This document shows positions 52,071 to 58,562 of a DNA stretch of 64,000 nucleotides, piece by piece. Source of the stretch: Hyphomonas sp. (GTDB lineage Bacteria > Pseudomonadota > Alphaproteobacteria > Caulobacterales > Hyphomonadaceae); assembly GCA_013791775.1 (NCBI GenBank), contig VMTE01000036.1, positions 288,151 to 352,150 on the forward strand, written 5' to 3'. Below the pieces are notes generated by a model. That model searched no databases, was not told the origin of the DNA, and saw only the letters and a list, made by a program, of their open reading frames with translations. The number at the start of each line of letters is the position of its first letter. Within the stretch, counting starts at the first letter, position 1. Position numbers and translations under genes: made by a program.

Positions 52071-52119
52071 GATGGTCGGAGTGAGAGGATTCGAACCTCC
52101 GACCCCTAGCTCCCGAAGC
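52071..52119 (-). repeat. left attachment repeat (tRNA-Pro 3' fragment)
   Basis: This copy covers the T-arm, variable region and anticodon arm side of tRNA-Pro, from the encoded CCA (read on the minus strand) up to GCTTCGGGA. Beyond base 52119 the match to the tRNA stops abruptly. Confidence 0.9.
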
Positions 52120-52286
52120 ATGAGAAAAGATAATAAAATCAGTGATCTGTGTGTAAACTGTTGGGCTTCTAACCCCTTGATGTGATTGAGGGCGCTCAAG
52201 GTGCTGTAAACCGCCAGAGTGTTGCAATCTTCAATTTTTTGAGGCAAAAGGCAGATTAATTCACATCCATTTTTTCAAGGGCGGCC
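52120..52286. other. left margin of the tRNA-Pro element
   Basis: This 167-base AT-richer stretch has no gene. It contains GTGTAAACTG and CTGTAAACCGCCAG, and the right margin has CCGCCAGTAAACTG. These repeated GTAAAC-type words near both ends could be arm-type recombinase binding sites, which is only an inference. Confidence 0.4.
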
Positions 52287-52982
52287 ATGTATCTCGAGAA
52301 CCGGATAATCGACTTGCTCACCTCCGGCGGCGTCGCCGACGCAAGAAAGTTCTTCCTCAGCTGGGATGAAGCCCGGAACGCATCGTGGGCAAACGCTCAT
52401 CGCCAAGCCAAGCTTCTTGCAGCCTCGCCTGGGCACCTTCCAGCGCTACGAGGGCAACTGCGGCATCAGCTCGGAGAAGAGGCTCTCGCCATCGCCGCTG
52501 AGCAAGCGAAGTTGGGCATCATAGCAAGGCCCACTGAGCAACCTGGAGCATGCATGATGCTTGCTCGAGTCGGTCGGTTTGCTCTTGCGTCAGTGAAAGT
52601 TCGGCACCGCACGCTTCTCCCCAGGCAGTCGCTGACCCGGGAAGTGCTCAGCCGGCCGAACTTGGAACTTGATCCCCAGTCCGATTTTCTGCAGGGCAAG
52701 CCTCCGGGATCGCTGACGGAACTGGCATACTTCGGCTGTCTGATTGCCGTACCGTCTTGCTCTGACCCTTCCGCTCCCGGCGAACTTTGCCTTGCCGTGC
52801 CTGATGGATCGATGCGCGACTGGATTAAGGTTTTGTCAATCGAAACCCTTCACGGCATGTTGCTGGATCGAGCTGCTGGAAGCAAAAAAGCCAAGCCAAC
52901 GAGCGCCTCGAAGATCGAAGATAAGGTAATCCCTCAGATTATCGTGCCGAAGATCGAGAAGCCCGGCGGCGGCGACCAGTAG
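52287..52982 (+). CDS. unknown protein, first gene of the tRNA-Pro element
   Basis: This 231-residue protein starts MYLENRIIDLLTSGGVADAR, with AAGGGCGG upstream. Parts such as HLPALRGQLRHQLGEEAL, MLARVGRFALASVKV and LLPRQSLTREVLSRPNLEL resemble proteins that I recall as frequent partners of XRE-ImmA/IrrE genes, whose function is unknown. No catalytic motif is obvious. The last 40 residues are charged and linker-like. It is 32 bases before the ImmA/IrrE gene on the same strand, so the two form a likely operon. Confidence 0.72.
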   Translation: MYLENRIIDLLTSGGVADARKFFLSWDEARNASWANAHRQAKLLAASPGHLPALRGQLRHQLGEEALAIAAEQAKLGIIARPTEQPGACMMLARVGRFALASVKVRHRTLLPRQSLTREVLSRPNLELDPQSDFLQGKPPGSLTELAYFGCLIAVPSCSDPSAPGELCLAVPDGSMRDWIKVLSIETLHGMLLDRAAGSKKAKPTSASKIEDKVIPQIIVPKIEKPGGGDQ

Positions 52983-53014
52983 CCCAGATCATAATTTGAT
53001 AGGGGATCGGAGCA

Positions 53015-54220
53015 GTGAGCCGTCCGACAACGAAAGGATTCTTTGTGCCGGAGCGCCTCTTGGAGGCTCGTAAGGCGCGCGACTTTACTCAACGGGAAGT
53101 GGCGCAGAGAATCGGCCTTGAAGTTTCGGCATTGTCGAAATGGGAGACGGGGCAAGCGGCTCCAGAGCCGGCCACGATCAGTCATCTGTCGACTGCGCTT
53201 TCCGTGTACCCCTCATATTTTTCGAAGCCTCTACCCAGTCACGGGCAAACCCCGATTTTCTTTCGTTCACTCGCGAGCGCAACTAAGAAGGCACGTAGTC
53301 GCGAAGAAGCGAGGGTGCGATGGATGCAGGATATTTCCATTGAGCTTCAACGGTATGTCTCATTCCCATCCGTTGATATCCCGGATGTGATGAACGGTCG
53401 CCATTACTCTAGTCTGACCACTGATGATCTGGAGGAGATCGCTTTGGCCCTCCGCAAACACTGGGGCTTAGGCGAATCGCCGATTGATAACGTGGTTCTG
53501 CTTGTCGAAAATGCCGGTGTTATCGTAGGTCTTGATTACGCGAACTCTGGTTCAATCGATGGTCAAGGCACTTGGTCTGATGTCGATCTGAGACCGTACA
53601 TGTTGCTTGCCAAGGACAAAGATAATGCCTTCCGCAGAGCAATGGACTGTGCGCATGAGCTGTCGCATATCGTTCTGCACAAGGACGTTACGGATGAGGA
53701 ATTGACTACAGATTTTCACGTCATTGAAGATCAGGCTAAATTTCTCGCAGGAGCTTTGATGCTCCCATACACTTCTTTCTCAAACGAGATCCGGTCACTT
53801 TCACTTGACGGCTTCTTGGAGCTAAAAGCTCGTTGGGGAGTATCGGTGGGCGCAATGATTATGCGAGCTGTGCAAACTGAGATCATTGGAGAAGAGACCG
53901 CCAAGCGCCTCTGGAAGTATCGTGCCGCGCGTGGATGGCATCGAAAAGAGCCATTGGACCTTCCAGAAGAAACGCCAGTGCCCAATCCCCGGCTTTTGCA
54001 CCGATCCATTGACTTAGTTGTAACTCACAAAGTTCGCTCCAAGCGGGATCTACTGGAACAAGACTTCTGTCTGTTTGCCGATGATGTAGAAACGCTTTGC
54101 TCAATTCCGAGGAATTACTTTGCAGAGCCTTCTGCACAAGTTCATCACTTGCAGCCGACTCTAAAAACTACTCAGGGTGAACCTGCGTCAGGCAATGTGG
54201 TGCCGTTTAGGAAGAGTTGA
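53015..54220 (+). CDS. XRE helix-turn-helix / ImmA-IrrE metalloprotease
   Basis: This 401-residue protein joins an N-terminal XRE domain (about 12-70, ARKARDFTQREVAQRIGLEV and SALSKWETGQAAP) to an ImmA/IrrE (COG2856) peptidase. The zinc motif is HELSH at 214-218, in AHELSHIVLH. A downstream EDQAKFLAGALMLP gives the third ligand region. In ICEBs1, ImmA cleaves the repressor ImmR; here repressor and protease are one chain. The start is GTG at 53015. It is lower-GC like its partner. It could regulate the element or act in a toxin-antitoxin or defence pair. Confidence 0.87.
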   Translation: MSRPTTKGFFVPERLLEARKARDFTQREVAQRIGLEVSALSKWETGQAAPEPATISHLSTALSVYPSYFSKPLPSHGQTPIFFRSLASATKKARSREEARVRWMQDISIELQRYVSFPSVDIPDVMNGRHYSSLTTDDLEEIALALRKHWGLGESPIDNVVLLVENAGVIVGLDYANSGSIDGQGTWSDVDLRPYMLLAKDKDNAFRRAMDCAHELSHIVLHKDVTDEELTTDFHVIEDQAKFLAGALMLPYTSFSNEIRSLSLDGFLELKARWGVSVGAMIMRAVQTEIIGEETAKRLWKYRAARGWHRKEPLDLPEETPVPNPRLLHRSIDLVVTHKVRSKRDLLEQDFCLFADDVETLCSIPRNYFAEPSAQVHHLQPTLKTTQGEPASGNVVPFRKS

Positions 54221-54318
54221 AGACTGTTGCCAAACGCGAGCAAAACACGGCTCTCGATATGCGGTCTGTCAACCGCCAGTAAACTGAGGCTGGTCTGACG
54301 GATACAAAGCCTTGAAAA

Positions 54319-54367
54319 GATGGTCGGAGTGAGAGGATTCGAACCTCCGACCCCTAGCTCCCGAAGC
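54319..54367 (-). repeat. right attachment repeat inside the intact tRNA-Pro
   Basis: This is the second 49-bp copy. It includes two bases beyond the tRNA 3' end and runs through the T-arm into the anticodon loop. Confidence 0.9.
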
Positions 54368-54397
54368 TAGTGCTCTACCAGGCTGAGCCACACTCCG
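54321..54397 (-). tRNA. tRNA-Pro (anticodon CGG)
   Basis: The 77-base gene reads CGGAGTG...CACTCCG-A-CCA on the minus strand. The seven-base acceptor arms pair exactly and the CCA is encoded. The anticodon arm is CTAGC-TTCGGGA-GCTAG, giving anticodon CGG, which reads CCG codons. The T-arm GGTTCGAATCC is canonical. Its 3' part is the attachment site of the element to its left (52071-54367). Confidence 0.97.
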
Positions 54398-57266: not shown

Positions 57267-58439
57267 CTAAGTCCGACTTGAAATTCTGCGCAAGAAGTCA
57301 TCGAACATAGGTACAGTAAAGGCGATATCGCCATGCGCGGGACTGTAGATCATTCCCTTTTGTATTATTGCAGCTCTTCGCGGCGCTAAGGTCTGAACGT
57401 TTACTTTCAACGTATCTGCTACGTCCGCCGAGCGATAAGGTCCTTTGCCCAGACTGGCCATAGCTTGCACGTATTCGCGCTCTTTCGGAGTGAGTCGATC
57501 ATACCGAACAAGGAAGAATCCCTCGTCCAATCTCTTGAGCGCCGATGCAGCGGCAGTTTGGACATCCGTTTTGGTGATCGGCGACGACTCGGCTGTGTTC
57601 CATGCCTGATACCCCCACTCTTGAAGGAAGTATGGATACCCGTGAGTGCCAATTACAATATCCTGCAGAGCATCTTCATTGATTTGTTCGCCCTCGTTTT
57701 GAATCGGCTCGCGAATTGCTTTTGCTGCAGCTTTTTCGTCTAGTGGGCCAATTGCTGGATAAGCAAACAATCTCTCTGAATACGACTTCGCTTCACCCAT
57801 CAAGCCAGCAAGTTGAGGCAAGCCGGCTCCAAAGAACATGACTGGAAGTTGCCTTTGGTTAGCGCGATGAATCGCGACGACCAATGCGGAAAGTTCGTCA
57901 CCTTTGAGGTACTGCACCTCGTCAATGAGCAATGCCCAACCTTTGCCGGCCGCCTTTGCAGCAGCGCCAATTCGCAGAAACAAGTCGGGTAGGTCCGTCT
58001 CCAGATTACCCGTATCCGACGTTCCAGGCTCTGGATCGACAGACAGCGAGTATTCTTCGTAGTGAATTTTGAAGGCGCTAGCGAAGCTACGAAGCGCTCG
58101 CAAGGCCGCGTGGGTCGCCGATTTCGCTGATTCCACTGCAGACAACTGACGCAACACTTTGAATATGTGCGGATACAGCAGATCAGCGAGAGCCTTGTTT
58201 TCAGGCGCTTCGATAAATGAGGTTAGACAGTTGTGCCTTTCCGCAATTGTTTGGATTTTGTTTAGTAGAACGGTCTTTCCAACGCCGCGAAGTCCTAACA
58301 GGATTTGAGAGCGTGCTGCTCGACCTTGCACAAGGCGCTGCACTGCGACTTCGGCGTCGTTGATTACGTCATCACGGCCCGCCAGTTCTGGAGGTGGAGA
58401 GCCGGCTCCTGGAGCAAAGGGGTTTCGTACGGGGTCCAT
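57267..58439 (-). CDS. AAA-type ATPase, low GC
   Basis: This 390-residue protein has Walker A GLRGVGKT (49-56) and Walker B ALLIDEVQYL (about 170-179). A C-terminal winged-helix-like segment ends in RTLTP/REYVQAMA and VNVQTLAPRRAAIIQKG. It resembles the ORC/Cdc6-like and archaeal-type ATPases often annotated only as ATP-binding proteins on mobile DNA. GC is about 50 percent and the region upstream is AT-rich, unlike the flanks, so recent transfer is likely. The ATG at 58439 is used; a GTG at 58445 is possible. Its function is unknown. Confidence 0.8.
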   Translation of the reverse strand: MDPVRNPFAPGAGSPPPELAGRDDVINDAEVAVQRLVQGRAARSQILLGLRGVGKTVLLNKIQTIAERHNCLTSFIEAPENKALADLLYPHIFKVLRQLSAVESAKSATHAALRALRSFASAFKIHYEEYSLSVDPEPGTSDTGNLETDLPDLFLRIGAAAKAAGKGWALLIDEVQYLKGDELSALVVAIHRANQRQLPVMFFGAGLPQLAGLMGEAKSYSERLFAYPAIGPLDEKAAAKAIREPIQNEGEQINEDALQDIVIGTHGYPYFLQEWGYQAWNTAESSPITKTDVQTAAASALKRLDEGFFLVRYDRLTPKEREYVQAMASLGKGPYRSADVADTLKVNVQTLAPRRAAIIQKGMIYSPAHGDIAFTVPMFDDFLRRISSRT

Positions 58440-58562
58440 CGTCACTTATCTATCTAATTTATGCCCGTATACCATGATATGCAAATATATCAATATACCT
58501 ATGAATAAGTTGATATAAACCCGCTGAGTTCGTGATCCGCTCTGGATCGCACTGCGACTAGT
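58440..58562. other. AT-rich leader of the AAA ATPase gene
   Basis: This stretch is very AT-rich (for example ATGCAAATATATCAATATACC), in sharp contrast to the flanks. It likely holds the ATPase promoter and marks one edge of the transferred segment; ispH ends right at its other side. I see no direct repeats at the two edges. Confidence 0.5.

Follow-up and report, generated by a model that had tools for sequence, protein, structure and literature searches.

A RosmerTA cassette without an integrase gene in a tRNA-Pro gene of Hyphomonas sp.: a candidate non-autonomous mini-element

How an insertion holding two genes and no integrase came to lie in a tRNA gene, and whether such an insertion is a mobile form or a remnant, is the question raised by the tRNA-Pro(CGG) locus of Hyphomonas sp. 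(assembly GCA_013791775.1, contig VMTE01000036.1). The stretch analysed, hereafter the window, comprises 64,000 nucleotides (contig positions 288,151 to 352,150, forward strand), and its coordinates are counted from its first letter. The insert is probably a non-autonomous integrative mini-element, i.e., a cassette of the toxin-antitoxin system RosmerTA within an apparent tyrosine-integrase attachment site that lacks the integrase gene. Three further integrase-less inserts in related genomes favour a mini-form moved by another element's integrase over one-off decay.

The insertion at tRNA-Pro(CGG) and its cargo

The locus is composed of the following parts.

52071..52119, no strand: putative far attachment site, a displaced 49-bp copy of the tRNA-Pro 3' part (exact repeat; one copy at the empty sites of congeners)
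52152..52160, plus strand: arm-like word TGTAAACTG (word scan; exact consensus pairs adjoin integrases in viral contigs)
52205..52213, plus strand: arm-like word TGTAAACCG (word scan)
52287..52982, plus strand: RmrT-like toxin gene of RosmerTA, 231 aa (PADLOC RmrT, E 2.8e-19)
53015..54220, plus strand: RmrA-like antitoxin/protease gene of RosmerTA, 401 aa, HTH_3 and Peptidase_M78 domains with HEXXH (PADLOC RmrA, E 2.4e-131; Pfam)
54267..54275, plus strand: arm-like word TGTCAACCG, one change from TGTAAACYG, 45 bp past the tRNA CCA (word scan)
54278..54286, plus strand: arm-like word AGTAAACTG, one change from TGTAAACYG, 34 bp past the tRNA CCA and 11 bp from TGTCAACCG (word scan; 34/45 spacing as in viral contig L208)
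54310..54319, plus strand: tail CCTTGAAAAG abutting the tRNA 3' end (common to the integrase-bearing elements L113 and L116)
54319..54367, no strand: putative near attachment site, the 49-bp repeat in the intact tRNA gene (exact repeat)
54321..54397, minus strand: target gene, intact tRNA-Pro(CGG) (ARAGORN)

The two 49-bp direct repeats are exact, are spaced by 2248 bp from start to start, and extend to an alignment with 54 of 55 positions identical and one mismatch. ARAGORN finds a single tRNA in the window, the intact tRNA-Pro, and the repeat at 54319-54367 lies within this gene, while that at 52071-52119 is the displaced copy of its 3' part. The space between them is filled by two open reading frames (ORFs), the smaller ORFs overlapping these two being taken as chance, and RmrT and RmrA are the only proteins recognised there. 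The GC content of the insert is 52.8%, against 65.8% in the remainder of the window, a drop of 13 points. All of this agrees with the initial annotation, which had read from the letters alone the exact repeats of the tRNA 3' part, the intact tRNA at one end with a fragment at the other, a GC content about ten percent lower inside, and two genes without an integrase. The whole insert is single-copy in its own genome, where further matches are confined to tRNA-like sequence.

Congeners supply the empty site. In G039, G014, and G018 the same neighbours surround a single 49-bp copy identical to that of the window; the shared flanking genes are alaS, a small ORF, and two genes past the tRNA, with a lipoprotein gene also present in G039 and G014. 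Joined across one 49-bp copy, the window flanks align end to end with G039 (81.8% identity) and G014 (79.4%); the alignment with G018 covers 140 columns around the site, at 89%. Overall, 38 tRNA-Pro loci of congeners were fetched and 36 scored (L092 was left out and L073 has no tRNA), with up to 8 kb upstream examined, and less at contig ends (e.g., L058, L059, L084). A second long repeat copy was present in one of the 36, that of G035, which is described below; L083 has a 14-bp partial repeat match 402 bp upstream. The comparison with related genomes suggested in the initial annotation thus yielded congeners with one clean copy and the same neighbours, and turned up neither relatives with the two genes but no second tRNA fragment nor empty sites without a clean copy. 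The two genes were cleanly inserted into the tRNA gene.

As a general possibility alone, part of a tRNA might also be duplicated through homologous exchange of the flanks or through faulty assembly. This is hardly credible here, given the one-copy empty sites between the same neighbours and the distribution of the tail CCTTGAAAAG, which within the genus stands beside the tRNA in two of 42 genomes (the window's own and G035), both of them with inserts. Moreover, the locus lies about 10 kb inside the end of a 352-kb contig, away from the contig break.

The match of the insert to RosmerTA, an anti-phage toxin-antitoxin family (PADLOC), makes concrete the supposition that it may carry a selected function. 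The RmrT and RmrA genes lie on the same strand with a gap of 32 bp, toxin next to antitoxin as in RosmerTA, and RmrA has the ImmA/IrrE-type protease domain of the family, together with the HTH domain that often accompanies it (Peptidase_M78, 54.2 bits with a cut-off of 22; HTH_3, 43.8 bits with a cut-off of 23). The RmrT-like protein had no Pfam match up to E 1 and no PHROGs match up to E 0.1, and its predicted fold (pLDDT 36.8) was left unused. RmrA matches at E 0.001 or better were present in 46 of 150 relatives, many of them confined to the HTH part, and RmrT-like ORFs adjoin RmrA relatives in G060 and G002. Relatives of RmrA were also found in 314 plasmid records and 28 phage records, every one below 60% identity, and none in IMG/VR. 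RosmerTA itself is therefore ordinary and widespread.

RosmerTA systems are described as pairing diverse toxins with an ImmA-like protease antitoxin, and a member from a Gordonia phage as causing membrane depolarisation and protecting E. coli against some phages (PMC10440598). The window pair resembles the systems described there in that RmrT adjoins an RmrA with HTH and ImmA-like protease domains (PMC10440598). No difference in gene content was found; the unusual part is the vehicle. Judging from the sequence match, RmrA would neutralise the toxin and the pair would act against phages at this locus as well.

Ends of the element and related inserts

The non-coding ends of the insert contain four GTMAACYG words in a single direction, starting at 52152 (TGTAAACTG), 52205 (TGTAAACCG), 54267 (TGTCAACCG), and 54278 (AGTAAACTG). 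Compared with the longer form TGTAAACYG, two are exact and two have one change, and each end holds two. Four of the seven GTMAACYG words of the window (both strands) fall in these two end regions, a number that none of 20000 mononucleotide shuffles of the end sequences reached.

The tail between these words and the tRNA has relatives elsewhere. A search of the GTDB contig collection for the tail followed by the tRNA start gave four stretches (L113, L114, L115, and L116), whereby L115 is G035 itself, and in L113 and L116, both from metagenome bins, an integrase ORF above the Pfam cut-off ends beside the tail. In IMG/VR, the tail occurs in two near-identical contigs, L117 and L118, 73 bp past an integrase-like ORF that in L117 scores under the Pfam cut-off (21.5 vs. 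27.1 bits). The insert of G006, described below, has a tail variant, TCATTGAAAAG. Apart from these, an inverted copy of the tRNA-side tail at 54310-54323, matching in 13 of 14 positions, lies at 52267-52280 within the left end (CCATTTTTTCAAGG / CCTTGAAAAGATGG) and may be due to chance.

Three further inserts without an integrase gene were found. That of G035 is at the same tRNA-Pro, with a spacing of 1064 bp between exact 49-bp repeats, and has its empty site in G041 (96.5% identity over 677 columns). The G006 insert is likewise at this tRNA-Pro (spacing 1060 bp, exact 50-bp repeats), and that of G125, which belongs to another genus of the same family, is in tRNA-Thr(TGT) (spacing 1114 bp, exact 47-bp repeats). 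All three have words at 11-bp spacing at the tRNA-side end: GAGGATAR in G035 and GAGACAAA in G006 and G125. The latter two inserts have 3 plus 2 words, with those of G125 (TTGTCTCTC) arranged as three at one end and two at the other, 11 bp apart. In G125, both words (L131:1430-1460 and 2311-2331) and cargo are reversed relative to the tRNA as compared with G006, though the word is nearly the same.

The cargo of these inserts is also related. The G035 and G006 inserts have in common a gene for a protein of 169-175 aa and a small upstream ORF, and the protein shared by all three inserts is a membrane protein with 47-52% identity to the G006 copy. Its predicted fold would consist of one helix and a beta sandwich (pLDDT 71.9); the PDB matches were assorted beta-sandwich proteins with a TMq of at most 0.51 and were not taken as a family. 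A search of the 398 genomes of the order gave five matches (G006, G035, G125, G356, and G401), the one in G401 being weak and with stops, and there was no match in phage records, plasmid records, or IMG/VR. The G125 insert couples a 62-aa protein bearing an Acb2/Tad1 hairpin domain (PF24729, E 2.8e-15) with the one-helix beta-domain protein (L131:2046-2378 and 1486-2010); in the G006 insert, a protein of the latter kind is accompanied by another small phage-like ORF (phrog_21988, E 1.1e-5). Such a pairing could represent a sensor-effector defence pair.

The repeat pattern search in the 398 order genomes (118 matching) gave G006 with three copies on one contig among the matches listed, with more copies possible. 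In this tandem array (L119:4842-5902 on; G006:C12:161842-209024) the 1060-bp insert is followed by a second repeat, an integrase domain (163404-163862), and, after another 46 kb, a third repeat at the tRNA. The array looks as though a mini-element and a full element had come together by accretion. It speaks for a strict cis-mobilisable element (CIME), one whose mobility is exclusively in cis and requires that an element with an integrase enter the tRNA gene next to it, the two then leaving as a composite; CIMEs described from streptococci measure 1.2-13 kb (PMC7563491). In the other three cases no further repeat copy lies beside the mini-element, neither in the window (3.5 kb) nor in G035 (8 kb) or G125 (3.5 kb), and movement of this kind alone is improbable.

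The relation of the words to integrases was examined in viral contigs. Scanning IMG/VR for pairs of exact TGTAAACYG words with a spacing of 11 bp gave 13 stretches; a pair counted as adjacent within 250 bp of an integrase, and the integrase profile was built from integrases outside the tested sets. Adjacency was found in 5 of the 13 TGTAAACYG stretches (1.57 at random positions), 10 of 58 with GAGACAAA (3.26), and 1 of 21 with GAGGATAR (0.25), as compared to 0 of 51 with the reversed control word AAACAGAG (0). Stretches with any integrase at all numbered 13, 5, 1, and 0 for GAGACAAA, TGTAAACYG, GAGGATAR, and the control, respectively; the control stretches having none, the contrast is partly one between kinds of contig. 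The pooled Fisher p was 5e-4, or 2e-3 with near-identical integrases counted once (the GAGACAAA set includes three that are 98-99% alike and a further two at 88%). In the TGTAAACYG and GAGACAAA sets, every one of the 15 integrases scored above the Pfam cut-off.

Single contigs come close to the arrangement in the window. L208 reproduces the distances of the window, its pair being 34 and 45 bp past a core whose letters are those of the tRNA-Pro 3' end; 39 bp away is the start of an integrase (Pfam E 6e-15). The pair of L202 is 32 and 43 bp past an intact tRNA-Pro(TGG), and L198 and L205 combine tRNA-like cores, recognised by eye, with word pairs and integrases. The GTAAAC words singled out in the initial annotation thus resemble paired words that stand beside integrases in viral contigs. 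Because the spacing on the tRNA side matches L208 and exact pairs lie by integrases, the ends of the insert resemble an attachment site for a tyrosine integrase of the phage type whose gene is missing, and from their place and repetition we infer that the words are arm-type integrase sites. Two other viral contigs have clusters of five and three GAGACAAA pairs (L151:1484-1648 and L150:3638-3711), with no integrase found in the stretches examined.

Source of the integrase

The initial annotation had proposed that the element may use a recombinase from elsewhere and that the genome be searched for one. Tyrosine recombinases are indeed present: the own genome has 17 PF00589 matches, near five of which ARAGORN finds a tRNA (five in all), none of them tRNA-Pro. 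The nearest own relative of the five viral TGTAAACYG integrases, L104 (G000:C34:13014-16349), was rejected as a helper, as it adjoins a tRNA-like fragment (tRNA-Gly by eye) and has another end sequence. In the scan of order genomes the GAGACAAA pattern gave four matches in two genomes, and its backwards control one (G313).

A number of observations weigh against a mini-form moved by another element's integrase. None of the 17 own PF00589 matches has a TGTAAACYG pair (10-12 bp apart, at most one mismatch per word) within 1.5 kb. Within the genus (42 genomes), the window-type pair has a single match apart from this one, in G040, and the 3 kb around that match contain no tRNA. The GAGACAAA pair in the 398 order genomes is confined to the G006 and G125 inserts and gave no helper, and the exact TGTAAACYG pair is found in 0 of 300 class genomes. 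The tRNA-side pair of the window, with one change per word, differs from the exact pair used in the viral scan, and in its own exact form it is present in no IMG/VR viral contig; the left-hand words have a spacing of 53 bp instead of 11. The words of G125 lie 128-139 bp from the tRNA and in the opposite direction. In Chelativorans (L114), the tail CCTTGAAAAG adjoins tRNA-Pro with no second repeat copy within 8 kb, and G356 and G401 have no tRNA or long repeat in about 3 kb around the shared protein. Finally, the RmrT gene is without a match in the other 149 relatives searched, so that the mini-form of the window was seen once only.

The initial reading, a tRNA-targeted, cargo-only insertion that may use a recombinase from elsewhere, is supported. 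The similar mini-elements favour a mobile mini-form over the satellite-like or decayed element also considered there, but neither the host nor the sampled genomes yielded an integrase accompanied by such words. A visiting phage helper could be absent from such genome samples, which is an argument and not a finding.

The same results bear on the possibility that the insert is an immobile remnant, left when an internal deletion in a larger integrase-bearing prophage or island in the tRNA gene spared only the two ends and RosmerTA. The elements L113 and L116, with integrase and the same tail, make such a parent plausible; decayed integrative elements are described as common in streptococci (PMC7563491); and a remnant would fit with the lack of a helper in the own, genus, order, and class genomes searched and with an element seen once. 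On the other hand, four integrase-less inserts retain both repeats and the end words, and the 49-bp repeats of the window are still identical. The three inserts with a common gene, all of 1.06-1.11 kb, could hardly come from separate deletions, given that gene and length are shared although two tRNAs and two genera are involved, and independent decay is unlikely in their case. The window element was seen once and may still have arisen by decay; overall, we consider the remnant the less likely explanation.

A tyrosine integrase needs core and arm sites in cis, not its own gene. Under the preferred reading of a non-autonomous mini-element, the window element would be a phage-type attachment site (attP) in which the RosmerTA cassette replaces the integrase. 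An integrase from another element, which was probably a temperate phage or an island in transit through the cell, would bind the words and core in trans and integrate the element at tRNA-Pro; alternatively, the other element's integrase would move a neighbouring composite in cis. RmrA would then restrain RmrT and release it upon infection by some phages, and the cassette would be kept because the released RmrT acts on phage infection.

A broader proposal can be advanced only tentatively: a class of 1-2 kb 'attP-only' anti-phage cassettes may parasitise phage and island integrases in trans, exchanging cargo and arm words so that the same cargo appears on different integrases and tRNAs, and would have escaped notice since both an integrase gene and a length of 2 kb or more are required by a standard finder of tRNA islands. 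If such elements are moved in trans, a few hundred bp of attachment site suffice to mobilise a two-gene immune system, and phage integrases would spread anti-phage genes. Small defence cassettes may thus travel on the integrases of other elements, and the four inserts, with their predicted integrase sites, can be put to concrete tests.

Apart from the insert, the window has a second low-GC patch at 57267-58445 (about 51% GC), which contains a minus-strand ORF (392 aa) for an AAA_16 ATPase and has no adjoining tRNA (ARAGORN).

Comparison with known systems

Phage satellites, such as phage-inducible chromosomal islands (PICI), phage-inducible chromosomal minimalist islands (PICMI), and the like, possess their own integrase and helper-directed packaging or replication genes. 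Neither an own integrase nor packaging or replication genes were recognised in the insert by ORFs, Pfam, or PHROGs, and the element was not placed among them. Tycheposons, another kind of element, are marked by a recombinase specific to the family and by a signature at the tRNA end.

CIMEs are described from Streptococcus salivarius as elements of 1.2-13 kb that keep their attachment sites and have no integrase or transfer genes (PMC7563491). They were found there in tandem with integrative and conjugative elements (ICEs) or integrative and mobilisable elements (IMEs), the sole arrangement detectable in that study, which presents them as decayed ICEs or IMEs, holds that they move in cis through accretion, and assumes that CIMEs also exist singly (PMC7563491). 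The window element is alike in having attachment sites, cargo only, no integrase or transfer genes, and a size within the range given. At both ends it has the 49-bp repeats and arm-like words, to which an integrase presumably binds, and with only RmrT and RmrA recognised in the insert, genes for integrase, conjugation, and mobilisation are missing. No parent ICE or IME from which it might descend by deletion was found, and integrase-bearing elements with a like tail exist. A third repeat copy, as expected from accretion, is lacking in the 3.5 kb around the window element and present beside the G006 mini-element. Since lone CIMEs are held to exist in the source cited, the missing accretion does not exclude membership, and the window element works like a CIME. 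It differs from those described in having no visible ICE or IME descent, in words that resemble phage-type integrase sites, and in that related mini-elements recur at two tRNAs.

In Dehalococcoides, 15 ssrA genomic islands without an integration module were identified; they share with the window element an RNA-gene target and missing integration genes, but are integrated by a serine recombinase and carry reductive dehalogenase cargo, as described in PMC3146451. The Pseudomonas tmRNA defence islands I23, I44, and I55 are similar in their tRNA/tmRNA target, direct repeats, anti-phage cargo, and lack of autonomous transfer genes (PMC12595487). According to the same report, each of them has its own tyrosine integrase, needed for I55 excision, and one tmRNA defence island was moved by a helper phage (PMC12595487), whereas the window element has no integrase. 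Miniature inverted-repeat transposable elements (MITEs) and clusters of attC sites lacking integron integrases (CALINs) are characterised as 'hitchers' of transposases and integron integrases, respectively (PMC11389934). The dependence on another element's enzyme is what the window element is proposed to share with them. It is set apart from MITEs, which have inverted repeats and no protein genes, by its direct tRNA repeats and two genes, and was not assigned to them; CALINs differ in their attC sites, in place of which the window element has tRNA-derived repeats and arm-like words (PMC11389934).

The tRNA-island finder Islander is described as requiring an integrase gene and rejecting candidates below 2 kb (PMC4383910); its integrase rule would drop all four inserts and its 2-kb rule three of them. 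In the literature covered, which mostly excludes subscription papers, no paper was found on lone integrase-less tRNA mini-elements with defence cargo. What is new here in comparison with the systems above is a defence-only cargo at such a size, words in common with viral integrase sites, and a build that recurs.

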